Positions 10,374 through 27,224 of a DNA stretch of 64,000 nucleotides are shown here, piece after piece. Both the position numbers and the translations under genes were made by a program. Under the pieces are notes generated by a model, which saw only the letters and a program-made list of their open reading frames with translations, was not told the origin of the DNA and searched no databases. How positions within the stretch are numbered: position 1 is the stretch's first letter; every line of letters starts with the position of its first letter. This DNA comes from Cyanobacteria bacterium FACHB-63. Lineage in GTDB: Bacteria; Cyanobacteriota; Cyanobacteriia; Leptolyngbyales; Leptolyngbyaceae. The DNA lies in assembly GCA_014695255.1 (NCBI GenBank), contig JACJNX010000073.1, positions 1-64,000 of the forward strand. Direction: 5' to 3'.

Positions 10374-10387
10374 TTCACCGTTTATTT

Positions 10388-10418: not shown

Positions 10419-10429
10419 CAGAAAAAACA

Positions 10430-11692
10430 ATGGGCACATATACAACAAATACACGGGTTGCAGTTTCTGCGTTTACTCGGCAAGCAGACGAAGAAGAAGT
10501 TGTGATTGGACATCCAGAAACGGCAGTGTTTTTAGTACTTCCTCCCGATGCTGTTGAACTCTTGGATGGTTTAGCAACGGGTAAAACAGTTGGGGAAGTT
10601 CAAGCTGCCTATCAAGCGAAGTATGGCGAAGTTCCTGATTTGGAAGACTTACTTACTTTTCTAGAAAGTAAAGGCTTTGTACATCCTCAGATGCACTCTA
10701 GAGAACTCAGTGGTTTCGATCAAGCAAAGAGTCGCACAGGGACTGTTAATTCTAGCAAACCTCCTCTGGTACGTTATCACTTCGCCAACTTTCCGAGATC
10801 GCTGGCTCAAGCGCTATTTAGCCGAATGGCGATGATTAGTTATGGGGGATTGATTGCTTTAGCATTGATCGCGATCGCGGCAGATCCGACGATCGTTCCT
10901 GGTTGGGATGCTTACTTCTTTAAGCAGAATGCAACAATGATGATCCTAATTATGGTGATTTTAGATTGCATCACGCTATTTTTGCATGAGATGGCTCATC
11001 TGGTTGCAGCGCGGGCACTAGGTGTCTCTTGCCGAATGGGAATTAGTCACCGCTTGTGGATGCTAGTTGCCGAAACAGATATGACAGGCATTTGGAGTGT
11101 ACCCCGACATCAACGCTACCTCCCGTTTCTTGCTGGTCCTTTGTTAGACACTGTATCCGCCTCGGTTCTGGTGTTGATTCTGTCTCTGCAACAGCGCGGA
11201 TTGATTAGCCTGCCTCCGGTAATATTTCAGATTGCTCGCGCATTGCTGCTCAACTATCTCTTGGGACTGCTGTGGCAATGTTACTTTTTCGTCCGGACTG
11301 ATTTCTATTATGTGATCGCCAACTTCTTTCGCTGTAAAAACTTAATGAAAGACACAGAGGTCTTTGTGCGAAATCAGGTTGCTCGCCTGCGCCGGATGCA
11401 TCACATTGATCAATCTCACATTCCAATCAAAGAACGGCGAGTGATTCGGATCTATGCCATTTTGTGGTGCCTCGGTCGAGTCGCTGCTCTTTATGCGCTT
11501 GGTTTTATTACACTGCCATTGATATGGCACTACAGTTTGTCGCTTTTGCCGATCCTTAGGGCTGGCTATCAGGCGAATCCTTACGCCTTTGTTGATGCTT
11601 TGTTGATGCTCTCGATGGTTTGTATTCCTCAAGGTATTGGCTTATGGCTTTGGTTGCGAAGTTTTCAGCTTAAACCCGCTAAATTATCATGA
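10430..11692 (+). CDS. PqqD-like domain fused to M50-type membrane zinc metalloprotease
   Basis: 420 residues. Residues about 10-85 form a PqqD-like fold (PETAVFLVLPPDAVELLDGLATGKTVGEV is the typical centre; split here at 29-57), the domain that binds leader peptides in RiPP systems. From about 130 on there are six or so membrane spans. HEMAH at 186-190 is the zinc-binding HExxH inside a helix, FLAGPLLD (233-240) matches the M50 GP motif, and RTDFYYVIANFF (289-300) supplies the likely third ligand, as in YydH-like peptide metalloproteases. The start lies just after the hairpin and has no good ribosome site. Its stop overlaps the next gene by four bases (ATGA). I infer that it recognises and cleaves the upstream peptide at the membrane. 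Confidence 0.85.
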   Translation: MGTYTTNTRVAVSAFTRQADEEEVVIGHPETAVFLVLPPDAVELLDGLATGKTVGEVQAAYQAKYGEVPDLEDLLTFLESKGFVHPQMHSRELSGFDQAKSRTGTVNSSKPPLVRYHFANFPRSLAQALFSRMAMISYGGLIALALIAIAADPTIVPGWDAYFFKQNATMMILIMVILDCITLFLHEMAHLVAARALGVSCRMGISHRLWMLVAETDMTGIWSVPRHQRYLPFLAGPLLDTVSASVLVLILSLQQRGLISLPPVIFQIARALLLNYLLGLLWQCYFFVRTDFYYVIANFFRCKNLMKDTEVFVRNQVARLRRMHHIDQSHIPIKERRVIRIYAILWCLGRVAALYALGFITLPLIWHYSLSLLPILRAGYQANPYAFVDALLMLSMVCIPQGIGLWLWLRSFQLKPAKLS

Positions 11693-13632
11693 ACATGCCA
11701 CTCACTGCTATGCTGCAATTAGAAATGGGTAAAGTTACGGTTCTAGAAGCAGAATCAGGACAAGCCCGTCAGGATTATTTGCAACGATCGCTAGCTCAAG
11801 TAACAAACGCAGAAACCTGGTTGCTTCGGTGCGATCGCACCGAAGCAGGACCCTGGGCGGGTCTAGCCGATTTGCTAACTCAGATACTGCCTCAAGTTCA
11901 ACACCACGCTCCAGAGTTAATTACACAGCACGACTACGAATTAACCCGCGTTCTGCCTGCTTTACAACGATCGCTACCCGTTCGCTATCCCTCTTTGACA
12001 GATATTGCTCCCCAACAAGAGCAAATCCGCAACTATCCAGCCGATCGCGCCTTTCGGATTATTCACGGTATCATCGATTTTTTAGCTGCTTGGTTTGAGC
12101 AGTCTCAGAGCAACCGCTTGATTATTGCTTGCGATCGCTACGACGACTCTGGTGGATTAGTTCGCATTTTCTTCACCGAATTACTGCGTCGTTGCGGAAA
12201 GCAGTTAAACCTGAGCCTGATTATTGCGATCGCTCCCGAGGCTGATCCGGATGTTGTAGGTAAATTTGATCCAAGTTTGATTGCACAAAGAATTTCGCTT
12301 GATCTACCGCATAGCGCAACTTCGATTGATTTACAAGCAATCAAGGCACAAGTTTGCGAGCTGCAACAGCGCGTTGACAATGATGCGATCGAGCAAGAAA
12401 TTCACTTACCAAGGCTGATTCATTATTTAAAGCTTTGCAATCAGCCTGAACAAGTTTTGACTTACCAAATTAAGGCTGCTGCACTTTACACGCGGCGAGG
12501 ATTTTACGAAGATGGTTTAGACTATGCACAGGCTGCTTTGGCACAACTAAAGCAGTGTCACCCAGACGGTGAGAAGCATTGGCAAATTGATTCCTTGCTG
12601 TATACCTGTTATGTCGCTTTAGACAAACCAAACGCTGCTTTTGCAGTACTCGAAGCAGCGATGCAAAGAACCAACACTGCGGACGATCGCTTCCGAGGTT
12701 GTTTCATGATGGCGATGTTGTACATTCGTGAACTTGAAGAGCGTGACATTGCCAAAGCAGAAGCATATTTGGAGCAAGGACTCATAGAATTAGCCCGAAC
12801 TACTTTTTCAGAGGAAGAAAAACTGTTTCACACCACCTTCAATCGAAACGGTTTAGCTTTAATTCGCTACCGTCAGGGAAGACACCAAGAAGCCGTAGAG
12901 CTTTGTCAATGGTGCTATCAACAAGTCAATGCTGTGATTCAGCCTGATCAACATCGTCTCTATCGATCGGTTCTGCTGTTCAACATTGCTCAGGTGTATG
13001 ACTTTATCGGCAACTATGCGGAAGCGATTCAATACTTCACAGCAGCAATGGAACTTGATCCAAATTACTCTGAATACTACAACTCGCGAGGAAACTTATA
13101 CTTCAAGCTAAATCAGCCTGATGATGCTCTCGATGACTACAAACGGGCAGTTGAATTGAGTGCGCCTTATCCAGAAGTTTGGGCAAATATTGGTCAAAGC
13201 TATCGACGCTTAGGCAATTGGACAGCGGCAGTTGATGCCTATTCTAGAGCGTTAGACTTGCAGCCGCAGCAGTTTTCTGTTTTGGTGGCGCGTGCCCAAG
13301 TGCTAGAGATGCTAGAACAACCGGAATCTGCTTTGGCTGACTACAGTGCCGCGATCGCAATTGATCCAACGCAGCCCTTGGTGCTAGCAAATCGCGCAAT
13401 CTTACACTACGGTATCGGGCAAGTTTCAGCCGCTTTAAACGATTTAAATCAAGCGATCGCTCTTGCTCCAGAAATAGCGGATTTATACCAGAATCGAGCG
13501 ATTGCTTTAACGAGTTTGGGTCGCTCTGAAGCTGCAATTCAAGATCTGCGAACTTATTTACAACTTTGTCCTGACGCTGAAGACTACACGGAGGTAGAAA
13601 GCCAAATGCTAGCTCTGCGATCACTGAACTAA
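11689..13632 (+). CDS. TPR protein with degenerate STAND/AAA-like N-terminal region
   Basis: 647 residues, translationally coupled to the M50 protease gene by ATGA overlap. The N-terminal third has the layout of the ATPase domain of MalT/AfsR-like regulators: KVTVLEAESGQARQDYLQRS sits where a Walker A loop is expected but lacks GxGK[ST], and NRLIIACDRYDDSGG sits where Walker B is expected. From about 240 the protein is helical repeats, with clear TPRs from about 430 to 630 (EAIQYFTAAMELDPN, DALDDYKRAVELS, AAVDAYSRALDLQP, ALADYSAAIAIDP, AALNDLNQAIALAP, AAIQDLRTYLQLCP). It is probably a scaffold or regulator for the peptide system, possibly no longer an ATPase. Its function is inferred from context only. 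Confidence 0.75.
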   Translation: MNMPLTAMLQLEMGKVTVLEAESGQARQDYLQRSLAQVTNAETWLLRCDRTEAGPWAGLADLLTQILPQVQHHAPELITQHDYELTRVLPALQRSLPVRYPSLTDIAPQQEQIRNYPADRAFRIIHGIIDFLAAWFEQSQSNRLIIACDRYDDSGGLVRIFFTELLRRCGKQLNLSLIIAIAPEADPDVVGKFDPSLIAQRISLDLPHSATSIDLQAIKAQVCELQQRVDNDAIEQEIHLPRLIHYLKLCNQPEQVLTYQIKAAALYTRRGFYEDGLDYAQAALAQLKQCHPDGEKHWQIDSLLYTCYVALDKPNAAFAVLEAAMQRTNTADDRFRGCFMMAMLYIRELEERDIAKAEAYLEQGLIELARTTFSEEEKLFHTTFNRNGLALIRYRQGRHQEAVELCQWCYQQVNAVIQPDQHRLYRSVLLFNIAQVYDFIGNYAEAIQYFTAAMELDPNYSEYYNSRGNLYFKLNQPDDALDDYKRAVELSAPYPEVWANIGQSYRRLGNWTAAVDAYSRALDLQPQQFSVLVARAQVLEMLEQPESALADYSAAIAIDPTQPLVLANRAILHYGIGQVSAALNDLNQAIALAPEIADLYQNRAIALTSLGRSEAAIQDLRTYLQLCPDAEDYTEVESQMLALRSLN

Positions 13633-13966: not shown

Positions 13967-14129
13967 ATGTGCCAACCGTAGCAATCCCAGAAATCAGAAG
14001 CGTATGAATCATTAGGATTCAATATTTAAAGAAATATGATGAAAGTTGCAAAAAATCCCATCCAGCCATTCTATTAAATAAGAACCTTCAGGTTAGACGA
14101 GATCTCTAGGTGAGGGAGGAAGCGCGATC

Positions 14130-17100
14130 GTGCCACCCATGTTGCAGATTCAACTTCTTGGCGGGTTTGACTTGTCCTACGGCGACCAGAGTTTGACGGG
14201 GGCGGCTTCAGAACGGCTTCAGTCTTTACTGGCCTATTTAGCCTTGAATCGGCAAAAGGCACACCCTCGCCAACACTTAGCCGCTCTATTTTGGACAGAC
14301 TCGAATGATACACAAGCTCGAACCAACTTACGTAAAGAGCTATACCATCTGCGGCAAAACTTACCGGATGTAGAACAGATTTTACGTATCGAACCAAAAA
14401 CACTCTCATGGTCGCCAACGGTTCCGTTTACGCTGGATGTGATCGACTTTGAGAATGCCGCAGAACAGGATCAACTCGAACCCGCGATCGCGCTCTATCG
14501 CGGTGAATTGCTGCCCCAGTGCGATGACGATTGGATTACTCCGGAGCGCGATCGACTTCAGCAATTGTATGTTCGAGTCTTGGAGCAATTAATTGAACGA
14601 TTCAAAGGGCAACAAGACTATCGTTTAGCCCTGAACTACGCACAGCAACTCTTACGGGTTGATCCGCTGAATGAATCGACCTACTGTACCTTAATGCGAC
14701 TGCATGATTTGAGTGGCGATCGCGCCAATGCGCTTCAGGTTTATCACCGTTGTATGACCATGCTGCGCGAGGAGTTGGGCATTGATCCCAGTCCCACCAC
14801 TCGCAAGCTCTATGAACAACTGTTGCGAGAAGAGGAGTTACCCCCAGACAAGCCCCGGATTCAGCAAGTACGCTATCTCCAGCCATCATCACCGCCGCAA
14901 TCCTCTCTACCTCTAGTTGGACGTAGCCCAGAGTGGAGCCGAATTCAAGACTGGGCAAGTTCAGCTACTCAAGTTCTCTTGTTAAGCGGTGAACCGGGAA
15001 TTGGCAAAACTCGATTGTTAGAGGAACTCCGAACAACGGTGCCAGTTGCGCTTTGGGGACGGGGATTTGCTGCCGAAATGGTGCGTCCCTACGGGATTTG
15101 GATTGATGCTTTACGATCAGTGCCGCTCCCACAGACTGTTCCAGCAGAATTGGGTTTCCTGCTGCCAGAGTTCGGGCAACCCGTCAAAGCCCCACCCGAT
15201 CGTAGCCATTTGTTTGATGCGGTGGTGCAACTGCTGGCAGACTGGACAACGCAAACTCCCTTGCTGGTGATACTCGATGATATTCAGTGGATGGATGAAG
15301 CATCATCAGCACTGCTGCACTATGCGAGTCGATTGCTGAGTCATCTTCCGGTTAAATTTGCTTGTACGGCTCGTTCTGGAGAATTATCCAAAAATGTCGC
15401 GATTTCGCAAGTTCTGCAATCGCTGCGACGCGAACAACGATTAAACACGATCGAACTCCAACCCTTCGATCGTGGCAACACGGCGGAATTGATTTGCAAG
15501 GTCAATACCGATCACTCGTTTGATCTGTCCCTAGAGCTGATCGATCAAGTCTTTCAGGACAGCGGCGGGAATCCTTTATTTGTTCTAGAAATTGCGCGGG
15601 CGTTGTCACAAAAACAGTCCCATTATGCGGATAATTTGGAAGCCTTGATTCACGCTCGACTGCAACAATTGGATGACCAGACACGCGACCTTTTACCCTG
15701 GGCAGCCGCACTCGGACGCAGTTTTAAGCCTGCAAGGATCGCTCAGGTTGTAGACTATCCGTTGCCGCAGCTATTAACCGCGATCGCACACCTAGAGCAA
15801 CAAAGCATGATTCGTCCTAGTACAGCGATCGGAAACGAACTGGGCTATGACTTTGCTCATGATGTGGTGCGCCAAGTTGTGTATGAACAGATGTCGGAGC
15901 CGTGCCGTCAATTGGTGCATTTGCAAATTGCTCATAAGCTCAACCAACTCACGACTCCTGACAATGCGTTAGCGGGTGAGATTGCTCATCATGCACGGCT
16001 AGGAGGCGATCACGTACTAGCTGCTTCTAGTGCCTTGCTTGCCGCAGAACGCTGTCTTAAATTATTTGCCTATGCGGAAGCGGCAGTGCTGGCTCAACGA
16101 GGTGTGCAGTCGTGTCAATGGCTCGATCGACAAACTCGCGTTCACTTGCAGTTGAGATTGCTTCGAGTTTGGGCAACTGCAGGCGTAACAGGCGATCGTG
16201 TCACTCAGATCGAAGCCGAAGTGCGTCAACTGATGGCAGAAGCGAGTCGATTAGGGTCAAACGATGATGAAGCGATCGCTCATGAAACCTTAAGTGTTCT
16301 GTATTATGAGCAAGGCAACTATGCTGAACTACATCAACATTCCCTGCGATCGACCGAAGTGAGCCGTGCCGCCAGTCCCGCAACAGCAGCCAGAGTTTTA
16401 GGGTTAAGCGGCTCCTGCTTGACAGAATTGGGACAGGATATGATTCGGGGAGAAGCAATCCTCCTGGAAGCACAATCGCTGGCGAGTCGAGTTGGGTTAG
16501 AGCAGAGCGATATCTATGGTGGATTGGGAGCTATTGAACTGCATAAGGCACACTATGATGCAGCACGGGCTTTCCTACAACGGGCATTACAACTCGCGCA
16601 GAGAGACCAAGACCGTTGGCGAGAGTGCAATTGCTTAACGAATCTGATCATGACCGAGCTAGAGGCGGGGGATGCCAATGCTGCCTTATCCTATTGTGAA
16701 GCTATGACGACTCTGGTTGCTCAGATTGAAGGAAAGGAGAGTGAAAGCGCAGTGGCAGCCGCATTGATGGCACTTGCCCATTACCAGCTTCAGCGTCTCA
16801 ATTCAGAACTCAATCTAGAAGCCGCGATCGTCAGACTGAAACAATTGGACATCAAGCGAATGCAGGCTTATATTCTGATTGGCGCGGCGGAAGTGAATTT
16901 TGTACAGGAACAATTTGAGTTAGCCGCTGTTCGAGCGGAGGAAGCTCTACAAATGGCTCAGATCATGAAGCATCCAAGCGAGATTGCGATCGCGTGGGCA
17001 TTGTTGATTCAAGCTGTTTTAGCATTAGGAGAAACAGATCGAGCCACTGCGCTATTTGAAACGCTACAGAATCACATCGATCTCCGTTTGCTCAGTGTCC

Positions 17101-17159
17101 GTGCCCGAAGTCAAGTCGATCACATGATGCAACAACTAAAACTGTTCACGTCTAATTGA
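14130..17159 (+). CDS. SARP-type transcriptional activator (wHTH-BTAD-AAA-TPR)
   Basis: 1009 residues in the AfsR/large-SARP arrangement. Residues 4-100 are an OmpR-like winged helix (LQIQLLGGFDLSYGD, ARTNLRKELYHLRQ). Residues about 105-235 are the bacterial transcriptional activation domain (DFENA, YRGELLP, EELGIDPSPTTRKLYEQLL). A STAND/AAA ATPase follows, with Walker A GEPGIGKT at 287-294 and Walker B LLVILDDIQW at 378-387. A long TPR-like region (about 600-1000) completes it. The GTG start has GAGGGAGGA about 9 bases upstream. SARPs bind direct repeats spaced by about 11 bases next to the -10 box; two such promoters lie downstream (17711-17767 and 22273-22317), so it probably controls this accessory region. 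It is followed within 5 bases by the DUF4242 gene. Confidence 0.9.
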   Translation: MPPMLQIQLLGGFDLSYGDQSLTGAASERLQSLLAYLALNRQKAHPRQHLAALFWTDSNDTQARTNLRKELYHLRQNLPDVEQILRIEPKTLSWSPTVPFTLDVIDFENAAEQDQLEPAIALYRGELLPQCDDDWITPERDRLQQLYVRVLEQLIERFKGQQDYRLALNYAQQLLRVDPLNESTYCTLMRLHDLSGDRANALQVYHRCMTMLREELGIDPSPTTRKLYEQLLREEELPPDKPRIQQVRYLQPSSPPQSSLPLVGRSPEWSRIQDWASSATQVLLLSGEPGIGKTRLLEELRTTVPVALWGRGFAAEMVRPYGIWIDALRSVPLPQTVPAELGFLLPEFGQPVKAPPDRSHLFDAVVQLLADWTTQTPLLVILDDIQWMDEASSALLHYASRLLSHLPVKFACTARSGELSKNVAISQVLQSLRREQRLNTIELQPFDRGNTAELICKVNTDHSFDLSLELIDQVFQDSGGNPLFVLEIARALSQKQSHYADNLEALIHARLQQLDDQTRDLLPWAAALGRSFKPARIAQVVDYPLPQLLTAIAHLEQQSMIRPSTAIGNELGYDFAHDVVRQVVYEQMSEPCRQLVHLQIAHKLNQLTTPDNALAGEIAHHARLGGDHVLAASSALLAAERCLKLFAYAEAAVLAQRGVQSCQWLDRQTRVHLQLRLLRVWATAGVTGDRVTQIEAEVRQLMAEASRLGSNDDEAIAHETLSVLYYEQGNYAELHQHSLRSTEVSRAASPATAARVLGLSGSCLTELGQDMIRGEAILLEAQSLASRVGLEQSDIYGGLGAIELHKAHYDAARAFLQRALQLAQRDQDRWRECNCLTNLIMTELEAGDANAALSYCEAMTTLVAQIEGKESESAVAAALMALAHYQLQRLNSELNLEAAIVRLKQLDIKRMQAYILIGAAEVNFVQEQFELAAVRAEEALQMAQIMKHPSEIAIAWALLIQAVLALGETDRATALFETLQNHIDLRLLSVRARSQVDHMMQQLKLFTSN

Positions 17160-17163
17160 GGTC

Positions 17164-17691
17164 ATGATGTCACTCGTTATTGTTGAAACCGTTACCGAAC
17201 AGCCGATGACTGATGCTTACCTGGAGGAAGCTGATCAGCTTGCTTTGCCCTGTCTAGAAGCTCATAATGTGACTTGGCTGCATTCTTTGTTATCGAGCGA
17301 TCGTCACCAGATGATTTGTATCTTTGATGCGCCAGATGCGATGTCTGTGCGAAATTCCTACGCCAAACTTGGACTTCAAAAGTATGCAATCTGGGCAGGG
17401 GAGATCATTCAGTCAGAAGACATTCAACCGCTACCAGAGTTAGCAGAACATTCTGTCATCAAAGTCCATGATCCTACTTCGAGCGAAACAAACTGGAACG
17501 AAGCCCAGCAAAAATTCTCGCAATGCTGTGTGGCGCATGGAATCAACTGGCTCCGCGCTTATGTGTCGCTCGATCGCACTCGAACCATCTATGAATTTAT
17601 GACACCGGATGTAGAGTCTCTACGAAACATTCAGCATCAAGTGAACCTCTCTTGCGATGGCATCTGGTCGGGTCAACTTTTAATCCCTTGA
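17164..17691 (+). CDS. Tandem DUF4242 (ferredoxin-like, SCO4226-type) protein
   Basis: 175 residues built from two copies of one domain. Copy 1 (about 3-85) contains HNVTWLHSLLSSDRHQMICIFDAPDA. Copy 2 (about 95-175) contains HGINWLRAYVSLDRTRTIYEFMTPD at the same place. This pattern (H-x-V/I-x-W-L..., then acidic-Pro-Asp) is that of DUF4242 proteins, small alpha/beta barrels of which SCO4226 is reported to bind nickel. The function here is unknown. The ATG follows the SARP stop by 4 bases, and the ribosome site GAGG overlaps that stop, so the two are likely cotranscribed and coupled. Confidence 0.75.
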   Translation: MMSLVIVETVTEQPMTDAYLEEADQLALPCLEAHNVTWLHSLLSSDRHQMICIFDAPDAMSVRNSYAKLGLQKYAIWAGEIIQSEDIQPLPELAEHSVIKVHDPTSSETNWNEAQQKFSQCCVAHGINWLRAYVSLDRTRTIYEFMTPDVESLRNIQHQVNLSCDGIWSGQLLIP

Positions 17692-17710
17692 TGAGTGGGG
17701 GTTTCAGGTT

Positions 17711-17767
17711 TGGAACGTTTTGGAACACTTTAGAAACGGTTTTGGAACGACACGATCGCTACCTTAA
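17711..17767 (+). promoter_or_regulatory. SARP-type promoter: phased direct repeats plus -10 box
   Basis: Four TTTGGAACG-like repeats have their conserved C at 17716, 17726, 17737 and 17748 (spacing 10, 11, 11). A -10-like TACCTT lies at 17760-17765. Known SARP operators are heptameric direct repeats at about one helical turn, close upstream of the -10 and replacing a -35. From the last repeat onward the sequence aligns gap-free with the element at 22273 (GAACG, three bases, CGATCGCTA, CT or TT, AA). It drives the methyltransferase gene at 17796. Confidence 0.65.
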
Positions 17768-17795
17768 GTTCAGATGAATCTTCAAGGAGCAACCC

Positions 17796-18869
17796 ATGAC
17801 GACCCAAACTCTCGATTCCACCAAAGCAGAAGCTTTTGCTGGAAGAATGATTGATATTCTTAACAGTGCTGCTTTGACATTGATGATCTCAATCGGTCAT
17901 CGCACTGAACTGTTTGACACCATGGCAGAACTTCCACCCTCGACCAGTCAGCAAATTGCCAATGCTGCTGGATTGAATGAGCGCTATGTGCGTGAATGGC
18001 TCGGTGCAATGGTAACAGGTTCCCTTGTGAACTATGACACAGCTCAGCAAACTTATGTGCTACCTGCCGAACACGCTGCATTTTTGACAAGAGTTGCCGA
18101 ACCGAATAATCTTGCGCTGTTTGCTCAATTTCCTCCCATGCTGGCTTTAGTCGAAGACCAAATTATCGACTGCTTTTACAAAGGAGGCGGGGTTCCCTAC
18201 TCTGAGTTCAATCGCTTCCATACGGTCATGGCAGAAGCAACCAATCAAGGAACCGTTACTCCATTATTCGATGGGGTGCTGCCGTTAGTTCCGGGACTGA
18301 CTGAAGCATTGCAGCAAGGCATTGATGTTTTAGATGTAGGCTGTGGCTGTGGAAAAGTTCTCAACCTCTTGGCTGAAGCTTTCCCGAGTAGTCGATTTAC
18401 GGGCTACGATTTCTCAAGTGAAACGATCAAGGTCGCAAAAGCTGAAGCTCAACGACATCAGTTATGCAACATTGAATTTCAAGTCAAAGATGCGGCTACG
18501 ATCGAGGAATGCGATCGCTACGATCTGATCATGACATTCGATGCGATTCATGATCAAGCAAAACCGGATCAGGTGTTACGAAACATCTATCGAGCCTTAC
18601 GTGCTGATGGAACTTACCTGATGCAAGAAATTCGGGCTGCAACCAATGTCGAGGAAAACTTAGTTCATCCACTCGCCCCTTACTTCTACACCGTTTCCTG
18701 TATGCACTGTATGACCGTTTCTCTCGCTTATGGTGGAATGGGTTTAGGTGCAATGTGGGGACAGGAAACAGCACAGCGAATGCTAAGTGAAGCTGGTTTT
18801 AAGCGCATTGAAATCAAGCAGCTACCACAAGACCTCGTAGAAGACTATTACATCGTTCACAAGCAATAA
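17796..18869 (+). CDS. SAM-dependent methyltransferase with N-terminal winged helix
   Basis: 357 residues, strong ribosome site AAGGAG 8 bases upstream. Residues about 15-100 form the winged-helix dimerisation domain seen in Rv2258c-like methyltransferases (ISIGHRTELFDTMAELPPST, GLNERYVREWLGAM). The Rossmann domain carries the SAM-binding motif VLDVGCGCGKVL (178-189), then FTGYDFSSE and DLIMTFDAIHDQ. The C-terminal part (HCMTVSLAYGGMGLGAMWG) is the substrate-side region of this family. Substrate unknown. It stands behind the phased-repeat promoter, so it is the best candidate for direct activation by the SARP protein. Confidence 0.85.
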   Translation: MTTQTLDSTKAEAFAGRMIDILNSAALTLMISIGHRTELFDTMAELPPSTSQQIANAAGLNERYVREWLGAMVTGSLVNYDTAQQTYVLPAEHAAFLTRVAEPNNLALFAQFPPMLALVEDQIIDCFYKGGGVPYSEFNRFHTVMAEATNQGTVTPLFDGVLPLVPGLTEALQQGIDVLDVGCGCGKVLNLLAEAFPSSRFTGYDFSSETIKVAKAEAQRHQLCNIEFQVKDAATIEECDRYDLIMTFDAIHDQAKPDQVLRNIYRALRADGTYLMQEIRAATNVEENLVHPLAPYFYTVSCMHCMTVSLAYGGMGLGAMWGQETAQRMLSEAGFKRIEIKQLPQDLVEDYYIVHKQ

Positions 18870-18873
18870 CCCT

Positions 18874-19023
18874 ATGTGTCAACTCTGCGGACTTGCAGCA
18901 CGGTATGGCCGTGTTCGCCAGGACTCTCTTGTCCAAAATCTCAGTCAATTTGCGACTGCAATTCAAGCCAAAGCAACGATTGAGAAAAAACCGAATCAAA
19001 CAATCACTAAACCAGCTAAATAG
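18874..19023 (+). CDS. 49-residue protein starting MCQLCG, possible small gene or debris
   Basis: The ATG lies 4 bases after the methyltransferase stop. The frame encodes MCQLCGLAARYGRVRQDSL, then a helical, Lys-rich tail (ATIEKKPNQTITKPAK). A CxxC at the very N-terminus could bind metal, but only two Cys are present. There is no clear ribosome site, though termination-coupled translation is possible. The stop falls inside a 16-bp repeat and decayed genes follow, so it may also be a fragment. No family recognised. Confidence 0.35.
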   Translation: MCQLCGLAARYGRVRQDSLVQNLSQFATAIQAKATIEKKPNQTITKPAK

Positions 19024-19051
19024 TACGCTAACAAGAGCTAAATAGTACGCT
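19014..19051. repeat. 16-bp direct repeat, 22-bp period
   Basis: AGCTAAATAGTACGCT occurs identically at 19014-19029 and 19036-19051, separated by ACAAGA. The 22-bp period equals two helical turns. It may be a duplication scar from the decay of this region or a paired protein site. Confidence 0.7.
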
Positions 19052-19496
19052 TCGTCCTCAAACGATCGGGAAAGTCACCCCTGCACCTGTGAGAGTTTCT
19101 GGACAGATTACAGGCAGTCGTGACGAAGATGTACTTCGATTTGAAATTGCGCCAGGACAGGATGTAAAAGCTGTTCTCACAGTTAATGGAGATGTAGATT
19201 TAGAAGTCCATGAAGACCAGAACCCAGATGGTCAGTTAGGCGCAGGCGATCGCAAGAAGATCTCAATCAGCGAAGGTAAACAAACCGTGGAAGTCAATTT
19301 CAAAAATATGAAGTCGCGGTTTGGCTTCATTCGCATCATGGATTCCGGCGGCTCTGGCTCGTCTGGAACCGTGAACTACAACCTGACTCTTACCGCAGTT
19401 CCCACAGACGGACTGCCTAGAATCGAAAGCCGCGATAAGCATCTACAAGCGGTAAGTAATTCAACAACATTCATTGACCGATTGAATTGCTACTAA
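19032..19496 (+). pseudogene. Pre-peptidase C-terminal-like beta domain, probably gene fragment
   Basis: The frame opens at 19032 and contains one beta-rich domain: VSGQITGSRDEDVLRFEIAP, then GQDVKAVLTVNGDVDLEVHED and GTVNYNLTLTAVP. This resembles pre-peptidase C-terminal (PPC) domains, which normally follow a secreted enzyme. No enzyme, signal peptide or good start codon precedes it (a GTG at 19089 is the first candidate), and the 3' end after TAVPTDGLPRI looks random. I infer a fragment of a secreted multidomain protein gene. Confidence 0.5.
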
Positions 19497-19548
19497 CAGA
19501 ATCTTGTAATGTAGAAACAAGAATCCAGATGGAGGCAAGCTGCGATCG

Positions 19549-19836
19549 ATGTTAAAGTTCTACTATGCTCCGCTTTCCGTGAATTCCCGACGAGTTTGAA
19601 TTGCGTTACTGGAGAAGCAGATTCCCTTTGAACCAATTCTTCTCAATCTAGATGGCGATCAATTCTCCACAGAATTCACCCAGATTAATCCCCTGCAAGG
19701 AGTCCCAGTCGTGATTGATGATGGACTGACGCTTGTGGAATCGTTAGCGATTTTGGAGTACCTAGAAGCAAAGTATCCCATGGTCTCACTCATGCCTCAT
19801 GACGTGAATACGATCGTATTCCAGCCGTTTTGCTAG
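19549..19836 (+). pseudogene. Glutathione S-transferase N-terminal domain with internal stop
   Basis: From the ATG the frame gives MLKFYYAPLSVNSRRV, TGA, IALLEKQIPFEPILLNLDG, and then NPLQGVPVVIDDGLTLVESLAILEYLEAKYP. This is the thioredoxin-fold GST domain, including the cis-Pro (VPVV) and the glutathione-binding ES. TGA stands where a Trp codon (TGG) would fit. After AKYP the frame degenerates and the helical C-terminal domain is missing. Two lesions make this a clear pseudogene. Confidence 0.8.
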
Positions 19837-19924
19837 AGAAATACCATTGGTGCAATCAAACCTACGGACAAAAAACACTCATGCTAGTTCTAGAAAAATT
19901 ATCTAGCCTTTGAGGATCAACCTT

Positions 19925-20194
19925 ATGGAACGTCAATGTTTACGAATTCCAATTAGAACTGGATCAACGGAGCGAGTGGTGCAATGGATTCGCTCCTTGC
20001 AGGATCGCACTGATGAAATTGCGACTGCGATTGCAAGTGAAGGTATCACCGCTGAATCAGTTTTTCTTGAGCGGAGCAACAACGGGGATACGCTTCTGAT
20101 CTACACTGTGGCTACCGATCTGGTTGCAGCTAATCAAGCGTTTCAAGCTTCTACGATCGCGATTGATGTCGAGTTCCGCGCATTGATGGCATAA
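19925..20194 (+). CDS. DUF6176-like small protein (89 aa)
   Basis: ATG at 19925 with GAGGA about 9 bases upstream. The sequence begins RQCLRIPIRTGSTERVVQWI and continues with EGITAESVFLERSNNGDTLLIY. It matches the pattern of DUF6176 proteins (a ferredoxin-like fold, compared by eye). It is soluble, has no catalytic residues I can name, and its function is unknown. It is the first intact gene after the decayed stretch and runs in the same direction as the methyltransferase genes. Confidence 0.6.
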   Translation: MERQCLRIPIRTGSTERVVQWIRSLQDRTDEIATAIASEGITAESVFLERSNNGDTLLIYTVATDLVAANQAFQASTIAIDVEFRALMA

Positions 20195-20261
20195 ACGTTA
20201 GATTCGAGCGCTGCAACAGCCTTGGAGGTTCTGTTTGTTGTTCCGTAAATGAGGTCGAACC

Positions 20262-20747
20262 ATGCAGAAAATTTTGTACGTTTTAATTGGACCAAAAGGA
20301 GCAGGAAAAACCCATATTGGAAGTAAAGTTCATGAAAGAACAAGTATCCACTTTCTTAGAGTAGAACCGATCTGGCTGAAGTTAGCACCTGGGGAAGATG
20401 GTTGGGAAATCGTTGAGAGAACGATTGATCAATTGTTTCAGCAACAGAATGAAGTCATGATTGAAAGCTTAGGAGCGGGTGCTGGATTCGATCGCTTACA
20501 TTCATCTTTGAGACAGAAATACATCGTAAAGCTGATCAAAGTTGCAACGGATTTAGAAACTTGTTTGAATCGAGTTAGGAACCGTGACAACGCCAATCAT
20601 ATTCCAGTATCTGATGAAAAAGTACAGGAGTACAACCAGATTGCTGCTAGGGTTGAACATCGTTGGGATGCGATCGTAGATAATAATGCTCCAGCCACGG
20701 ACGAAGAGATTCTCAAGGTCATCGAATCACTGAGGATAGTGCAATGA
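20262..20747 (+). CDS. P-loop NTPase, small-molecule/nucleoside kinase-like
   Basis: 161 residues with a Walker A motif GPKGAGKT at residues 9-16 right after the first beta strand (KILYVLIG), the layout of shikimate- and adenylate-type kinases. Short helices follow, with a likely lid region (RVRNRDNANHIP, Arg-rich) near residue 105-118. The substrate cannot be told. Its stop overlaps the next methyltransferase start by four bases (ATGA), so the two are translationally coupled. Confidence 0.7.
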   Translation: MQKILYVLIGPKGAGKTHIGSKVHERTSIHFLRVEPIWLKLAPGEDGWEIVERTIDQLFQQQNEVMIESLGAGAGFDRLHSSLRQKYIVKLIKVATDLETCLNRVRNRDNANHIPVSDEKVQEYNQIAARVEHRWDAIVDNNAPATDEEILKVIESLRIVQ

Positions 20748-21526
20748 CTGATTTTTATGACCAACTTGCGCCGTTCTATCACATTATCTATGGTGATTGG
20801 GAGGCGGCGATTGCACGTCAAGCGACCCAACTTTCCAGCATTATCCAAGCGCATTGGGGCGAGCATGCGCACACCTTTTTGGATGTCTCCTGTGGGATTG
20901 GAACGCAATCCCTTGGGTTAGCGGCTCAAGGCTATCAAGTCACCGCATCTGACCTTTCTGTGCAGGCAATCGAGCTTGCCCAGAAAGAAGCTCAATCGCG
21001 CAACTTAGATATTCGTTTCTCGGTTTGTGATATGCGGACTGTGTACAACCATCATCAAGCTCAATTCGATGTGGTCTTGTCGTGCGATAACTCGATTCCC
21101 CACTTGCTGAATGATGCGGACATTCTCACCGCGCTCCAGCAAATGTATGCCTGCACTCGTCTGGGTGGCGGTTGCTTGCTGACGATTCGGGATTACGACC
21201 AAGAACCGCGAGGCACGGGAATTGTGAAGCCCTACGGAATTCGCCAAGCTGCCGGCAAACGTTATTTGGTTTTTCAAGTGTGGGATTTTGTCGGTGACAT
21301 TTATGATGTGGCGATGTATTTTGTTGAAGATGAACAACTCAATCATGCTACCACCACAGTTATGCGTTCTCGTTACTATGCGGTGAGTCCAAACCGCTTG
21401 ATAAAGTTAATGGAACAAGCGGGCTATCACTCCGTGACTCGACTGGACGAGCAATTTTTTCAGCCTGTACTCATCGGAACAAAATCAACTCGATCAGAGC
21501 GTTTCTCCGCAGAGTTTGAATCTTAG
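20744..21526 (+). CDS. Class I SAM-dependent methyltransferase
   Basis: 260 residues. It starts MTDFYDQLAPFYHIIY, the usual cap of this group, then motif I FLDVSCGIGTQSLGLA, motif II TASDLSVQAIELAQ and FDVVLSCDNSIPHLL. The substrate is unknown; glycine or small-molecule N-methyltransferases have a similar opening, but I see nothing decisive. Overlaps the P-loop gene by ATGA and is followed by another methyltransferase 10 bases later, forming a three-gene unit. Confidence 0.8.
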   Translation: MTDFYDQLAPFYHIIYGDWEAAIARQATQLSSIIQAHWGEHAHTFLDVSCGIGTQSLGLAAQGYQVTASDLSVQAIELAQKEAQSRNLDIRFSVCDMRTVYNHHQAQFDVVLSCDNSIPHLLNDADILTALQQMYACTRLGGGCLLTIRDYDQEPRGTGIVKPYGIRQAAGKRYLVFQVWDFVGDIYDVAMYFVEDEQLNHATTTVMRSRYYAVSPNRLIKLMEQAGYHSVTRLDEQFFQPVLIGTKSTRSERFSAEFES

Positions 21527-21536
21527 GAGCTACTCT

Positions 21537-22283
21537 ATGTCAACCTGGTACAACGAGGATCTTGCCTATGTTCATGATGTTGGCTTTCGAGATTACGCTC
21601 TGAAGTCAGCACCCGCGATCCTGGAACTGCTCAACGATCGCCAAATTCGCTCAGGATTAGTGATGGAGTTGGGGTGTGGAAGTGGGCTAACAGCCGAGGT
21701 ACTGCATCAGGCAGGCTATCAAGTGTTAGGAATTGACATTTCCGCAGCGATGATTGCGATTGCTCGATCGAGAGTCCCCACTGCTGAATTTCGCATCGCA
21801 TCTTTGTTTACGGTTGAAATTCCTCCCTGTGCAGCGGTGATTGCTGTTGGGGAATGTCTGAACTATGAATTTGAGACAAATTCGGATGCAACATTAGAGG
21901 CACTACTTCAGCGCATCTATCATGCCCTTTCCCCAGGTGGAGTCTTGATCTTTGATGTTGTTGTTCCTGGACAGGTCGCACCCGGAGAAATCGCGAAAAG
22001 CTTCACTGAAGGACAAGATTGGATTGTTCTAGTTGAAAAGCAGGAAGACCCCATTCAACAAATGCTAATTCGCCGGATTATTACGCTTCGGCAGGTTGAT
22101 GATTTGTATCGAAGGACAGACGAAGTGCATTGTCAGCGATTATTCGATGTGAAAACCTTGACTGAAGCGTTAGAGCAAATTGGGTTTCAGGTTGAAACAA
22201 GGTTGGATTACGGACAATTTAAGTTACCTCCTGCTCGTGTTGCTTTTATTGCCGATAAACTGATGGAGCTTCGGACGGTTTAG
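21537..22283 (+). CDS. Class I SAM-dependent methyltransferase
   Basis: 248 residues from the ATG at 21537, which has TTAGGAG about 8 bases upstream; the frame is open seven codons earlier. Motif I reads VMELGCGSGLTAEVLHQAGY, followed by VLGIDISAAMIAIARS and AVIAVGECLNYEFE. It is related in layout to the preceding methyltransferase but differs in motif sequences, so it is not a recent duplicate. The substrate is unknown. Its stop codon lies inside the second phased-repeat promoter. Confidence 0.8.
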   Translation: MSTWYNEDLAYVHDVGFRDYALKSAPAILELLNDRQIRSGLVMELGCGSGLTAEVLHQAGYQVLGIDISAAMIAIARSRVPTAEFRIASLFTVEIPPCAAVIAVGECLNYEFETNSDATLEALLQRIYHALSPGGVLIFDVVVPGQVAPGEIAKSFTEGQDWIVLVEKQEDPIQQMLIRRIITLRQVDDLYRRTDEVHCQRLFDVKTLTEALEQIGFQVETRLDYGQFKLPPARVAFIADKLMELRTV

Positions 22284-22317
22284 GAACGCTTTGAGAACGC
22301 TGCGATCGCTAATCTAA
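22273..22317 (+). promoter_or_regulatory. Second SARP-type promoter with 11-bp phased repeats
   Basis: CGGACG, GGAACG and AGAACG have their C at 22276, 22287 and 22298, exactly 11 bases apart. TAATCT at 22310-22315 is a -10-like box. The C of the last repeat is 12 bases before the -10 T, the same as at 17748 to 17760. Both elements share CGATCGCTA between repeat and -10. It overlaps the end of the upstream methyltransferase gene and leads into the gene at 22345. Confidence 0.6.
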
Positions 22318-22344: not shown

Positions 22345-22839
22345 ATGCGAATTCAATTTACTAAACAATCTGGCAAGTACGATCGGATGAAGTGTATCCG
22401 CATCGATGGAACAGCAACATCCTGCACAATGCCCAAACAAGGAATTCTGCCCCATGATTTTGTGCATTATGTGGTGGAAGATACGCTGGATTTATGTCAA
22501 GGGTTCTGGGGCATTCTTGCGATCGGGGTTGGTTTTCCCGATGCAGAACCGCCTTGGGATGCTGCGGAATTTAACTTGCCTGATTTAACCCAAGCCCTTC
22601 AAACAGAATCGTTAGTGGAATACTTTCAGGCTGAGATGTGGAACAGCTTTCACGTCAGCGAGAACTTCGCAGAAATTCTTCAGGTTACTTGTCAGGCTCG
22701 CAATGTTCCAGCGCCTGAAAACATTTCGCTAGACCAGTTAGAGCAGGTGCAATCGCGCCTTCAATATTTCACCCAGCAATGGCAACAATTAGCTATTGGA
22801 GAAACTTTAGAAGTTGAATTCACTGATCCGATTGCATAA
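22345..22839 (+). CDS. Unknown protein behind SARP-type promoter (164 aa)
   Basis: ATG at 22345 is chosen because AGGAG lies about 9 bases upstream; a GTG at 22327 would add six residues but would include the ribosome site. No family recognised. It begins with a basic beta-type segment (MRIQFTKQSGKYDRMKCIR), has a Met/Cys-containing middle (CTMPKQGILPHDFVHYVVED), and ends in a helical part with QLEQVQSRLQYFTQQW. The LPHDFVHYVVE stretch is His-rich and could hold a site, but this is speculation. Its position right behind phased repeats suggests co-control with the methyltransferase at 17796. Confidence 0.65.
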   Translation: MRIQFTKQSGKYDRMKCIRIDGTATSCTMPKQGILPHDFVHYVVEDTLDLCQGFWGILAIGVGFPDAEPPWDAAEFNLPDLTQALQTESLVEYFQAEMWNSFHVSENFAEILQVTCQARNVPAPENISLDQLEQVQSRLQYFTQQWQQLAIGETLEVEFTDPIA

Positions 22840-23077: not shown

Positions 23078-24064
23078 ATGACACAGTATCGCGCAAACTT
23101 ACCCCAACTCTCGAACGATTTGTTTCTCACCGATGGCGGATTAGAAACGACGCTCATCTTTCGGGAAGGCATTGATCTACCAGACTTTGCAGCCTTTGAT
23201 TTATTAAAGCATTCAGCCGGATATCAAGCCTTAGCCCATTACTTCCGTACCTATGCAACAATGGCTCGCAACTATCAAGTTGGGCTAGTTCTAGAAAGTG
23301 CAACCTGGCGGGCAAATCCAGACTGGGGAACTAGGCTCGGTTACTCTAGTGTTGAACTCACAGAGATGAACCGCAGAGCGATCGCACTTCTCCACAACAT
23401 TCGCCAAGAATACGAAACCGAAAACTGTCCGATGGTAATTAGCGGCTGTGTGGGTCCTCGTGGCGATGGCTATATTCCGACGGATGCAATGACCGCAACA
23501 GAAGCCGCAGACTATCACCGTGCCCAAATTGAAACATTCCACGATGCCGATGCAGACTTAGTGACGGCAATTACGATGAACTATGTTGAAGAAGCGATCG
23601 GCATTACTCAAGCGGCTCGATCTGCTGGAATGCCCGTCGCGATTTCTTTCACAGTTGAAACCGATGGAAATTTGCCGACCGGACAAAGTTTGAAAGATGC
23701 GATCGCACAAGTTGATTCGACAACGAACAATGCGCCTGCTTACTACATGATTAACTGTGCTCATCCGACTCATTTCACGCACATACTAACCGCAGGCGAG
23801 GCATGGATCGATCGCATTCGAGGATTACGGGCGAACGCCTCTACTAAGAGTCATGCTGAACTGAATGAATCAGAAACACTGGACGATGGGAACCCAACCG
23901 AATTAGGGAATCAATACCGCGAATTGCGATCTCAATTTCCCCAGATCACGATTCTAGGTGGCTGTTGTGGCACAGACGATCGGCATGTTGAAGCCATTTG
24001 CAAGGCATGTTTACCTGTGCTTTGGACTCATCTTTCTTCTCCAACCCTGACATCAAGTATTTAG
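23078..24064 (+). CDS. Homocysteine S-methyltransferase family protein
   Basis: 328 residues, good ribosome site (TTAGGAG). TIM-barrel enzyme of the MmuM/BHMT type, which moves a methyl group from a donor such as S-methylmethionine to homocysteine or a related thiol. The N-terminal DGGLETTL motif, VLESATWRANPDWG, and the three zinc-ligand cysteines (Cys227 in INCAHP; Cys296 and Cys297 in GGCCGTD) are all present. Sequences of this subgroup are often found with methyltransferase genes, and here four methyltransfer-related genes stand close together. The exact acceptor is not shown. The alpha/beta hydrolase gene follows after 9 bases. Confidence 0.85.
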   Translation: MTQYRANLPQLSNDLFLTDGGLETTLIFREGIDLPDFAAFDLLKHSAGYQALAHYFRTYATMARNYQVGLVLESATWRANPDWGTRLGYSSVELTEMNRRAIALLHNIRQEYETENCPMVISGCVGPRGDGYIPTDAMTATEAADYHRAQIETFHDADADLVTAITMNYVEEAIGITQAARSAGMPVAISFTVETDGNLPTGQSLKDAIAQVDSTTNNAPAYYMINCAHPTHFTHILTAGEAWIDRIRGLRANASTKSHAELNESETLDDGNPTELGNQYRELRSQFPQITILGGCCGTDDRHVEAICKACLPVLWTHLSSPTLTSSI

Positions 24065-24073
24065 ATATCAATC

Positions 24074-24850
24074 ATGCTGTACATTACCTCACATCATCAC
24101 ACCACAATTTCCTATGACAAGTATGGTGATGGTCCACCTCTTGTTCTCGTTCATGGTGGCTTTAGCGATCACATCACTAACTGGGAGTTCGTGAAGCCCT
24201 TGCTCGAGAAGCAGTTTACTGTTTATGCGATCGCTCGTCGCGGTCGTGGTGATACGGATGCCACAATCGATCACAGCCTGAATGATGAGAGCGACGACAT
24301 CGTGGCGTTGATTCAGTCGATCGGCGAGCCTGTCTTTCTCCTAGGTCACTCCTACGGCGCTCAGGTAGCACTTGCGGCGGCAGTCCAAGTTCCCAACCTG
24401 CTCCGCAAGCTGGTGCTTTACGAGGCTCCCCATCCCCATAGTATTAGTCAAGACCTCTTTGCACAGCTAGAAGCACAGGCGCAGGCAGCGCAATGGGACG
24501 AGTTTGCCGTCATCTTCTTCCGTGATGCCCTACTTGTTCCCATCGAGGAACTAGACGAACTGCGAGTTACACCGCTTTGGTTGCCCATCCTTGCTGATGC
24601 AAAAGCAACGCTCGGTGATCTGCGGGCACTGAGCAGGTACAATTTTGATATTGATCGCTTTCGTGATCTGCGCGTTCCGGTGCTACTCCAGATCGGCACC
24701 GAAAGTCCTCGCCATCTCTACATCACAGATACGATCGCGGCTGTACTGCCTGATGTTTGCATCGAAGAACTACCCGATCAAGCACACGAAGGCATGACAA
24801 CAGCACCCAATCTATATGCTGAAGCGGTGTCGCGCTTCCTGTTGAGCTAG
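24074..24850 (+). CDS. Alpha/beta hydrolase
   Basis: 258 residues. LVLVHGGFSDHITNW gives the oxyanion-hole HGG. The nucleophile elbow is GHSYGA (Ser near 94), the acid probably lies in the VPVLLQIGTES region, and the catalytic His is in DQAHEGM near the C-terminus. It belongs to the broad esterase/lyase-type hydrolase family; substrate unknown. It starts 9 bases after the homocysteine methyltransferase gene and is probably cotranscribed with it. Confidence 0.85.
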   Translation: MLYITSHHHTTISYDKYGDGPPLVLVHGGFSDHITNWEFVKPLLEKQFTVYAIARRGRGDTDATIDHSLNDESDDIVALIQSIGEPVFLLGHSYGAQVALAAAVQVPNLLRKLVLYEAPHPHSISQDLFAQLEAQAQAAQWDEFAVIFFRDALLVPIEELDELRVTPLWLPILADAKATLGDLRALSRYNFDIDRFRDLRVPVLLQIGTESPRHLYITDTIAAVLPDVCIEELPDQAHEGMTTAPNLYAEAVSRFLLS

Positions 24851-24892
24851 TTTCAATCAACCATTTTCGTTCAGTGCAAACAATAGGAGGTT

Positions 24893-26701
24893 ATGATGCA
24901 ACGTCTCTTGATTGCAATGAGATTGTTGACTTTTCTCAAGCGGCACTTTAAGAAATACAAAGTGATTGCTTTGGGAATGCTGAGTGCGATCGCATTGATT
25001 ATCTATAGTCAAATCGCGAATCACAATCCGCTGCATATCATTCTGCCGCAGCGTGCGATCGCGAAAGATGCTCAATCAAACCAAGCACCTTGTCACCATG
25101 CTCCGCCAGTGACCGCTGCCTTGGCAGCGACTAAGACCGAAACCGTGCCATTGTATAAAGGGTTAGATCAATACCCCTATCCCATTTCAACGCGCAATGC
25201 TCAGGCACAACGCTATTTCAACCAAGGGTTACTCCTTTCCTATGGGTTCAACCATGCTGAAGCCGCCCGCTCCTTCCGAGAGGCAGCTCGGCTCGATCCT
25301 AACTGCGCCATGTGCTATTGGGGAACAGCACTCGTTCTTGGTCCCAATATCAATGCAGGGATGGACAAGGATGCGGTTCCTCAAGCTTGGGAAGCCTTAC
25401 AAACTGCAATTCGATTAAGTCAAAGCCCCTCCACCAGTGCGCGTGACAAGGCACTGATTCAAGCCCTAGCCAAACGCTATACGTCACAACCCGTCGAGGA
25501 TCGCAAACCGCTCGATCTCGCTTATGTCAAGGCGATGCGACAAGTGATGAAGCGTTATCCAGCAGATTTGGACGTAGCGACGCTGTTTGCAGAAGCTCTG
25601 ATGGATACAATGCCTTGGGACTATTGGCAACCAAATGGTCAACCCAAACCGGATGCTATGGAAATATTTCAGACTTTGGAAAACGTCTTAAAGCGCAACC
25701 CCAACCATCCTGGGGCAAACCATCTCTATATTCACGCGGTTGAGAAAGTGAAGCCTGAGTTGGGTTTAGCGGCTGCCGATCGCTTGATGAAGTTGTTTCC
25801 AAACGCAGGGCATCTCGTTCATATGCCATCCCATATCTACATCCGTACAGGTCGCTATCACGATGCAGTTTTATCTAATCAACAAGGCATCAAAGCAGAC
25901 GATGCTTATCTGGCTCAAACGCAAGCTCAGGGTATGTATCCCCTCGCCTACAAACCTCATAATCACCACTTTCTATGGTTTGCAGCACTAATGACGGGTC
26001 AAAGTCAGGTTGCTCTAGACGCAGCCAATCAAACTGCCAAAGTCGATCCTAAACTGCTCGGAGAAGGAGAGTTAGCGGGAGCCTTGCAGCATTACTCGAT
26101 CATTCCCCTCATGACTCAGGTGCGGTTTAGTCGATGGGATGACATTTTGGCAGTACCTACACCCACACAGCCCTACCAAAAAGGCATCTGGCACTATGGG
26201 CGAGGCAAGGCATTTTTGGGCAAGGGACAAGCGACCCAAGCGGCTCAGGAGTTGAAGCAGTTACAAGCGATCGCAACCAACCCCACCCTCAAAGATCTGA
26301 AAATTTGGGGCTTTAACAGCACCGCTAGCATCCTGGAGATTGCAAACCATGTGTTAGCGGGAGAACTTGCGACTCAAGCACAGCAGTATAGTCAGGCGAT
26401 CGATCATCTCAAAACTGCTGTGAAGCTAGAAGATGCGCTGGTTTACACAGAACCCGCAGACTGGTATCAACCGACGCGACAAGCGTTAGCAACGGTCTTG
26501 CTCAAGGCTGGAAAAGCCAGAGAAGCCGAGCAAGCCTACCGAGCCGATCTCAAAATCTATCCCAACAATGGATGGTCTTTGTATGGTTTAGCCCAAAGTC
26601 TACAGGCTCAAGGCAAAATCAAGGAAGCGCGATCGATTCAATCTCAATTCCAATCTGCTTGGAGATATGCGGATGTATCGCTCACTCTCAAGCAACTGTA
26701 A
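24893..26701 (+). CDS. Secreted or membrane-anchored TPR protein
   Basis: 602 residues with AGGAGG just before the start. A basic N-terminus and one hydrophobic segment (about 25-45, VIALGMLSAIALIIYSQI) act as anchor or signal. TPR-type helices follow: AQRYFNQGLLLSYGFNHAEA, AARLDPNCAMCYWG, NPNHPGANHLYIHAVE and near the end REAEQAYRADLKIYPNNGW. The CxxC in NCAMCYWG and HLYIHAVEK are conserved-looking. Proteins of this type are often annotated only as TPR proteins. It lies downstream of the hydrolase gene in the same direction, with its own ribosome site. Confidence 0.75.
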   Translation: MMQRLLIAMRLLTFLKRHFKKYKVIALGMLSAIALIIYSQIANHNPLHIILPQRAIAKDAQSNQAPCHHAPPVTAALAATKTETVPLYKGLDQYPYPISTRNAQAQRYFNQGLLLSYGFNHAEAARSFREAARLDPNCAMCYWGTALVLGPNINAGMDKDAVPQAWEALQTAIRLSQSPSTSARDKALIQALAKRYTSQPVEDRKPLDLAYVKAMRQVMKRYPADLDVATLFAEALMDTMPWDYWQPNGQPKPDAMEIFQTLENVLKRNPNHPGANHLYIHAVEKVKPELGLAAADRLMKLFPNAGHLVHMPSHIYIRTGRYHDAVLSNQQGIKADDAYLAQTQAQGMYPLAYKPHNHHFLWFAALMTGQSQVALDAANQTAKVDPKLLGEGELAGALQHYSIIPLMTQVRFSRWDDILAVPTPTQPYQKGIWHYGRGKAFLGKGQATQAAQELKQLQAIATNPTLKDLKIWGFNSTASILEIANHVLAGELATQAQQYSQAIDHLKTAVKLEDALVYTEPADWYQPTRQALATVLLKAGKAREAEQAYRADLKIYPNNGWSLYGLAQSLQAQGKIKEARSIQSQFQSAWRYADVSLTLKQL

Positions 26702-26711
26702 ATCAGACAGG

Positions 26712-27224
26712 ATGACTGTAATGCAAATTAAACCCTATGCTCCCTGCCATTTGGATGCGGTGATTCGTCTTTCACTGCGGGCATGGGAGCCTGTTTTCGA
26801 CTCACTGAAACAGGCACTCAATCCCAATCTATATCAGGTCTTCTACCCTGAACATTGGCGGGTGAGCCAACAAAAAGCGGTCGAAGCAATCTGTGGGGAT
26901 GAGCATACAAACGTCTGGGTTGCGATCGTTACAGACGCAGCAGAGCACAATGATGCAGGAACGATCGTCGGCTTTACCGCTGTGAAACTGCATCCAGAAG
27001 ACCACATGGGCGAAATCTACATGATTGCGGTCGATCCAGATTTTCAAGGGCGTGGCATTGGTAGCGCTCTAATCGAGTTTGTCCTGGATCGGATGCAAGA
27101 GGCGGGTATGCTGGTCGCAATGGTTGAGACCGCTGGAGATCCAGGTCATGCTCCGGCTCGTCATACCTATGAAAAGGCTGGTTTTGAGCTTTTTCCAGTT
27201 GCTCGATATTTTAAGGCTCTTTAA
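26712..27224 (+). CDS. GNAT-family N-acetyltransferase
   Basis: 170 residues from ATG 26712; a second ATG lies at 26721, and the frame is open upstream, overlapping the TPR gene. The acetyl-CoA pocket motif is DFQGRGIGSALIEF, preceded by the typical beta4 strand GEIYMIAVDP, and the C-terminal YEKAGFEL is conserved in the family. Substrate unknown. Last gene of the rightward accessory run. Confidence 0.85.
   Translation: MTVMQIKPYAPCHLDAVIRLSLRAWEPVFDSLKQALNPNLYQVFYPEHWRVSQQKAVEAICGDEHTNVWVAIVTDAAEHNDAGTIVGFTAVKLHPEDHMGEIYMIAVDPDFQGRGIGSALIEFVLDRMQEAGMLVAMVETAGDPGHAPARHTYEKAGFELFPVARYFKAL

Follow-up and report, generated by a model that had tools for sequence, protein, structure and literature searches.

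The window analysed here comprises 64,000 nucleotides, positions 1 to 64,000 of contig JACJNX010000073.1 of Cyanobacteria bacterium FACHB-63. It holds a gene for a large regulator of the SARP (Streptomyces antibiotic regulatory protein) type, followed on the same strand by a DUF4242 gene and by two short arrays of direct repeats, elements 1 and 2, which lie upstream of a methyltransferase gene and of a gene for a 164-aa protein, respectively. The features are collected in Table 1.

Table 1. Repeat elements, predicted promoter parts and genes of the locus (positions in the window)
Feature	Positions	Strand	Remarks
Element 1	17712-17749	+	Four GGAACG-like units, 10-11 bp phasing; predicted SARP operator over the -35 region
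Units of element 1	17712-17717, 17722-17727, 17733-17738, 17744-17749	+	GGAACG, GGAACA, GAAACG, GGAACG; read from the sequence
-10 box of element 1	17760-17765	+	TACCTT, 10 nt past the last unit
Predicted transcription start, element 1	17772	+	A of CAG; placed by the C-A conserved at this offset in aligned sites
Element 2	22272-22299	+	Three units; overlaps the 3' end of the methyltransferase gene before it (stop 22283)
Units of element 2	22272-22277, 22283-22288, 22294-22299	+	CGGACG, GGAACG, AGAACG; 11 bp phasing
-10 box of element 2	22310-22315	+	TAATCT, 10 nt past the last unit
Predicted transcription start, element 2	22322	+	A after CC; located from element 1 and from the aligned sites
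Large SARP-type regulator, 1009 aa	14130-17159	+	Putative OmpR-type winged helix, then BTAD and AAA_16 ATPase domains and a further C-terminal half
DUF4242 protein (SCO4226-like)	17164-17691	+	PF14026, two domain copies; between regulator and element 1
Methyltransferase, predicted main target	17796-18869	+	Rv2258c-like winged helix; PF21320, PF13847
164-aa protein, predicted target of element 2	22345-22839	+	No Pfam match at E 1
Four co-oriented genes after element 2	23078-27224	+	Homocysteine S-methyltransferase family, alpha/beta hydrolase, TPR protein, GNAT

An earlier note on this DNA had described GAACG-like direct repeats phased at 10-11 bases in both elements, aligned the two without gaps at an offset of 4550 and guessed transcription starts near 17772 and 22322. 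Reading of the sequence gave four and three such units, the alignment is correct and the element coordinates hold; a C-A stands at the expected start site in both elements, and the predicted starts are upheld at the level of the sequence. When both strands of the window were scanned for three units (at least 13/18) at 11 bp with a TAnnnT at +16, only elements 1 and 2 scored. At 15 other unit spacings (7-22 bp) no array at 15/18 with TAnnnT was found in the window, and 300 first-order Markov sequences yielded zero arrays at 15/18. Elsewhere in the window, at 37987-38068, there is a perfect 21-bp tandem repeat of 3.9 copies, the unit of which likewise contains GGAACG.

The two elements also have CGATCGCTA in common, to which the earlier note had given weight. 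The sharing itself stands, but it is weaker evidence than was assumed, because GATCGC is abundant in the genome and absent from the equivalent promoters of distant relatives; GGAACGNNNNGATCGCTA has 167 matches at no more than 2 mismatches, against 57 for the backward pattern. Perfect GGAACGNNNNGATCGCTA matches on contigs C138 and C153 were rejected as candidates, being single units without an array. Relatives with a SARP of about 56-79% identity have, upstream of many methyltransferase homologues, 2-4 GGAACG-like units at 11 bp followed by a GATCGCTA(A/C)CTT-like tail. At about 40% SARP identity, relatives still have the units, set 10 nt before TAnnnT, but no GATCGC. These distant relatives, with repeats and spacing but without GATCGC, rule out GATCGCTA as part of the binding code; judged from the sequences compared, it is a trait of a sub-clade and not a general code. 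The spacing to the -10 box is far more constant: among 41 arrays found by their repeats alone (at least 15/18, last unit) across all loci fetched by the methyltransferase, 39 have TAnnnT at one offset. A larger set gave 45 of 53, a figure biased upwards since it includes loci fetched with a pattern that contains TAnnnT.

How closely the arrays accompany the regulator was assessed in a sample of 291 cyanobacterial genomes, with a SARP match defined at E 1e-60; all genomes are related, so that the p-values overstate independence and serve as guides only. The pattern GGAACGNTTTNGGAACGNNNNGATCGCTA occurred at no more than 3 mismatches in 22 of the 291 genomes, compared with 2 sites for its backward control, and at no more than 2 mismatches in 15 genomes, 14 of which have a SARP match, the fifteenth being G066. 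The three-unit pattern with TAnnnT gave 95 sites in 52 genomes, against 35 backward-control sites (hand sum). By hand tally, genomes with the SARP held 70 array sites, in 29 of 42 genomes (backward control 8), and those without it 25, in 23 of 249 (backward control 27); the Fisher p for array presence by genome is 4e-16. The contrast is sharpest among the 43 genomes with methyltransferase homologues: 25 of the 28 that have the SARP contain the three-unit pattern, and none of the 15 that have no SARP match does (p 5e-9). According to the earlier note, loss of the repeats in relatives that keep both the SARP gene and its targets would speak against the proposal; of the 28 genomes that keep the SARP and the methyltransferase, these 25 keep an array. 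An exact degenerate scan of a collection of 84,980 species returned 17 stretches, 16 of them cyanobacterial and one from Chloroflexi (L132), the latter judged a chance match because it sits in apparent coding sequence.

The product of the gene at 14130 is a SARP, not AfsR proper. Its BTAD domain matches PF03704 above the cut-off (E 1.8e-25) and PF13191 (AAA_16) is also present, while the N-terminal winged helix gives a weak match to PF00486 (E 1.1e-4, 22.6 bits) below the 26.2-bit cut-off. The AfsR equivalog model NF053617 reaches 52 bits (E 3e-14) against a cut-off of 1430, well short of an AfsR orthologue. In a search of solved structures with a profile built from eight SARP homologues, the matches included AfsR (8hvr, E 4.8e-16) and EmbR (2fez, E 1.5e-12); EmbR and AfsR were the best Foldseek matches of a structure model of residues 1-250 (TM about 0.5, mean pLDDT 66). 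Matches to consensus-TPR and ubiquitin entries of the Protein Data Bank were discarded as repeat artefacts. The AfsR residues in contact with the DNA backbone, W74, Q81, R87 and R94, align with W55, Q62, R68 and R75, which are invariant in the 8 homologues, and other AfsR contacts (Q48, P79, T88, K95) are only partly kept. The base-reading residues T88 and R92 differ, aligning with Lys/Arg and His/Tyr/Asn, as would be expected if a different repeat is read.

The surroundings of SARP genes were also searched for any three alike units at 11 bp with TAnnnT, no sequence being named; GGAACG-like arrays emerged in most SARP loci, together with a few false or reverse-strand matches. The loci L203, L206, L208, L209, L210 and L212 gave no array at the thresholds used, and L204 a weak one only. 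A majority of T at the fourth base (GGATCG) was seen in 4 of 5 Arg64-Ala65 loci and in 1 of 21 Thr65 loci (p 0.002, or 0.013 if the count takes in all 8 Ala65 loci). In G145 and G007, where the SARP has the AKANLRRR helix, the units are T/CGGACG-like, and a two-unit hexamer test in G007 found nothing. At a further locus with this helix, on plasmid3 of Nostoc carneum, CGGACG-N5-AGGACG-N10-TAACCT precedes an OsmC gene, and among 60 hexamer permutations only CGGACG occurs in that form; this case was not used to form the idea of a helix/repeat match, and the site was first spotted by eye. Taken without tree correction, these sequences are suggestive of a repeat that tends to change with the recognition helix of the SARP.

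SARPs are known mainly as activators of antibiotic clusters in Streptomyces, and ActII-ORF4 and DnrI are small members of the family. With these two the present elements were compared in repeat number: three-repeat binding sites are reported for both (PMC10972967). A close parallel is AfsR at the afs box of the afsS promoter of Streptomyces coelicolor, likewise a large SARP with BTAD and an OmpR-type domain (a putative one in the window protein), acting at 11-bp repeats over the -35 region. According to PMC10936776, the AfsR repeats span -40 to -30 and -29 to -19, the first 8 bp of each are contacted by one protomer, and sigma region 4 rests on the SARPs in the complex. With the -10 hexamer set at -12 to -7, the GGAACG units here fall at -39 to -34 and -28 to -23, compared with contacted positions -40 to -33 and -29 to -22 in AfsR (PMC10936776), so that the AfsR register is matched within about 1 bp; the conserved C-A at the predicted start agrees with it. 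The two systems differ in the repeat (GGAACG here, CGTT(T/C)ATCGNN for the afs box, PMC10972967), in unit number (at least up to 4 here, 2 in the AfsR operator), in the part beyond BTAD (AAA_16 and a different C-terminal half here, NOD and TPR in AfsR) and in T88 and R92, which are not conserved in the cyanobacterial SARP. PimR of Streptomyces natalensis, a SARP-LAL, also joins a SARP to a large ATPase part; PMC5930380 gives its operator as three repeats with a 4-nt spacer, hence 11-bp phasing, with a 10-bp form bound too. Unlike the elements here, the PimR consensus is CGGCAAG and the main operator lies outside the -35 box (PMC5930380). Literature searches found no described cyanobacterial SARP operator.

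Elements 1 and 2 have the make-up of a SARP-type promoter, direct repeats at 11 bp over the -35 region at a fixed distance from the -10 box, and the comparisons above support taking them as real and conserved ones. We propose, with a probability of roughly 0.87, that both are promoters activated by a large AfsR/PimR-like SARP, most likely the 14130-17159 product, its C155 paralogue, or the two together. Protomers of the SARP would sit next to one another on the GGAACG units, which at a spacing of 11 bp share one face of the DNA across the -35 region; bound there, they would bring the housekeeping RNA polymerase to a weak -10 box of the form TAnnnT, and transcripts would begin at 17772 and 22322; the ATPase half may sense a signal. 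The SARP assignment made in the earlier note is thus supported by the co-occurrence of array and SARP, the fixed spacing, the AfsR register and the match to AfsR and EmbR. Several observations weigh against the proposal. The winged helix of the structure model has low confidence (pLDDT about 40-55), its predicted element order fitting nonetheless. Three of the 28 methyltransferase genomes with the SARP (G006, G113, G273) lack the array by the three-unit pattern, G273 having a GGAGCG-like one, and in G066 a two-unit element persists although the only SARP match is a fragment close to the methyltransferase. The link is looser in genomes that lack the methyltransferase, with arrays in 4 of 14 that have the SARP and 23 of 234 that do not (p 0.05). 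G222 and G105 contradict the helix/repeat match, and G122, one of four cyanobacterial AKANLRRR-helix loci, shows no array on its 4.6 kb contig.

Which SARP reads the arrays is a further question. The earlier note spoke of a local regulon; the two elements of the window do match, but the genome has four sites, two in the window (C151:17722 and C151:22272) and two on contig C155 (C155:164320 and C155:176198), the latter one on either side of a gene for a 1497-aa SARP-like protein with WD40-like repeats. One of these, at about 9200-9345 in L004/L047, is an intact element, and the methyltransferase remnant that follows it has a stop already at codon 4; the other precedes a likely membrane transporter (named by eye). 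Since the C155 gene adjoins two sites, either regulator could act, and the window SARP need not be the sole reader. It is conceivable, if unlikely, that the arrays are real operators read by the C155 protein rather than by the neighbour gene, or that both share the regulon: the C155 helix, ARTNLRRVIHELRQ, is similar to that of the window SARP and two GGAACG arrays lie on its contig, whereas the SARP found close to an array is, in most relatives, an ARTNLRKEL-helix homologue of the window protein. C155 (L047) encodes two proteins, of 1497 and 1222 aa, at 14064-18557 (-) and 9470-13138 (+), in which a SARP-like part is joined to an NB-ARC-like ATPase and to WD40-like repeats (domains named by eye), and six other genomes have open frames of about 2120-2200 aa with a SARP match at either end. 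No array was found in the short stretches scanned around the two remaining BTAD genes of the genome (C160, C168).

PhoB-type proteins belong to the same winged-helix class as SARPs and bind 11-bp direct repeats. Another regulator of the OmpR/PhoB type, for instance a phosphate response regulator, might read the repeats with the SARP as a bystander, and competition between PhoP and AfsR for a shared region is described in Streptomyces (PMC10972967). We regard this as improbable, since array presence tracks the SARP gene, arrays adjoin that gene and the repeat tends to follow the SARP helix. That the repeats arose by chance, or are left over from a family of mobile repeats, and have no part in regulation is scarcely credible: GATCGC-rich sequence is common in the genome and one copy precedes the methyltransferase remnant on C155, but the window controls gave none by chance, 39 of 41 arrays have the fixed TAnnnT spacing, and arrays are kept across families despite diverged flanks.

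Returning to activation by a large SARP, a wider proposal can be made more tentatively, at somewhat less than even odds. The arrays may belong to a family of cyanobacterial SARP regulons whose protein-DNA code can be read, in that residue 65 of the recognition-helix region (Thr/Ala) and the helix type (RTNLRKEL or KANLRRRL) would set the repeat (GGAACG, GGATCG or CGGACG); a start-site stem-loop in a sub-clade would add a second layer of control or protect the mRNA; and a cluster of methyltransferase and secreted-protein genes would be regulated by a signal sensed by the ATPase half with DUF4242 proteins. A conserved cyanobacterial SARP operator would allow prediction of the regulon genome-wide and point to a gene cluster under SARP control, and the SARP/promoter pair would serve cyanobacterial engineering. 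The predicted circuit is directly testable, and natural variation among helices and repeats could readily be used to test how SARPs select their sites.

As for the genes concerned, the arrays of relatives precede methyltransferases, secreted-repeat/calcium-binding-like and GNAT-like proteins (the last two named by eye), and also a homocysteine S-methyltransferase-family gene and members of the TPR family of the window gene at 24893. Homologues of the 22345 gene occur in 5 of the 291 genomes including its own, all five with the SARP. The array scan listed none directly upstream of the homologues in the 4 other genomes, and in G118 the homologue lies directly 3' of the methyltransferase and its array; the link of this gene to the regulator would accordingly depend on element 2 of the window. 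The four genes at 23078-27224 are possibly transcribed from element 2 as well, in a presumed operon, and weaker arrays of their own are seen in relatives for TPR-family members (L160, L200) and an S-methyltransferase-family member (L199).

The stem-loop is claimed for leaders with AGATGC at the start site alone, because the 69 leaders combined (p 3.6e-6) are non-independent sequences and only 11 of them individually reach p 0.05. Of 23 leaders selected by AGATGC at the start site, 16 have 5 nt or more of the complementary TGCATCT in the 37 nt that follow, where 1.4 would be expected; none of 2000 shuffles exceeded 7, a direct-copy control gave 3, and the 3' arm lies at varying distance. The leader of element 1 itself has a stem of only 3 bp, not significant, and that of element 2 (L117) no significant stem-loop. 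GATGC-loop-GCATC at the predicted mRNA 5' end can be seen in L013, L015, L018, L020, L023 and others.

The DUF4242 gene adjoins the SARP gene in many loci of relatives. On a plasmid of Mesorhizobium sp. AR07 (L214, 5953-9332), a SARP homologue with 31% identity, around which an array was searched for and none found, is likewise directly followed by a DUF4242 gene, and SARP and DUF4242 may form an old regulatory module.

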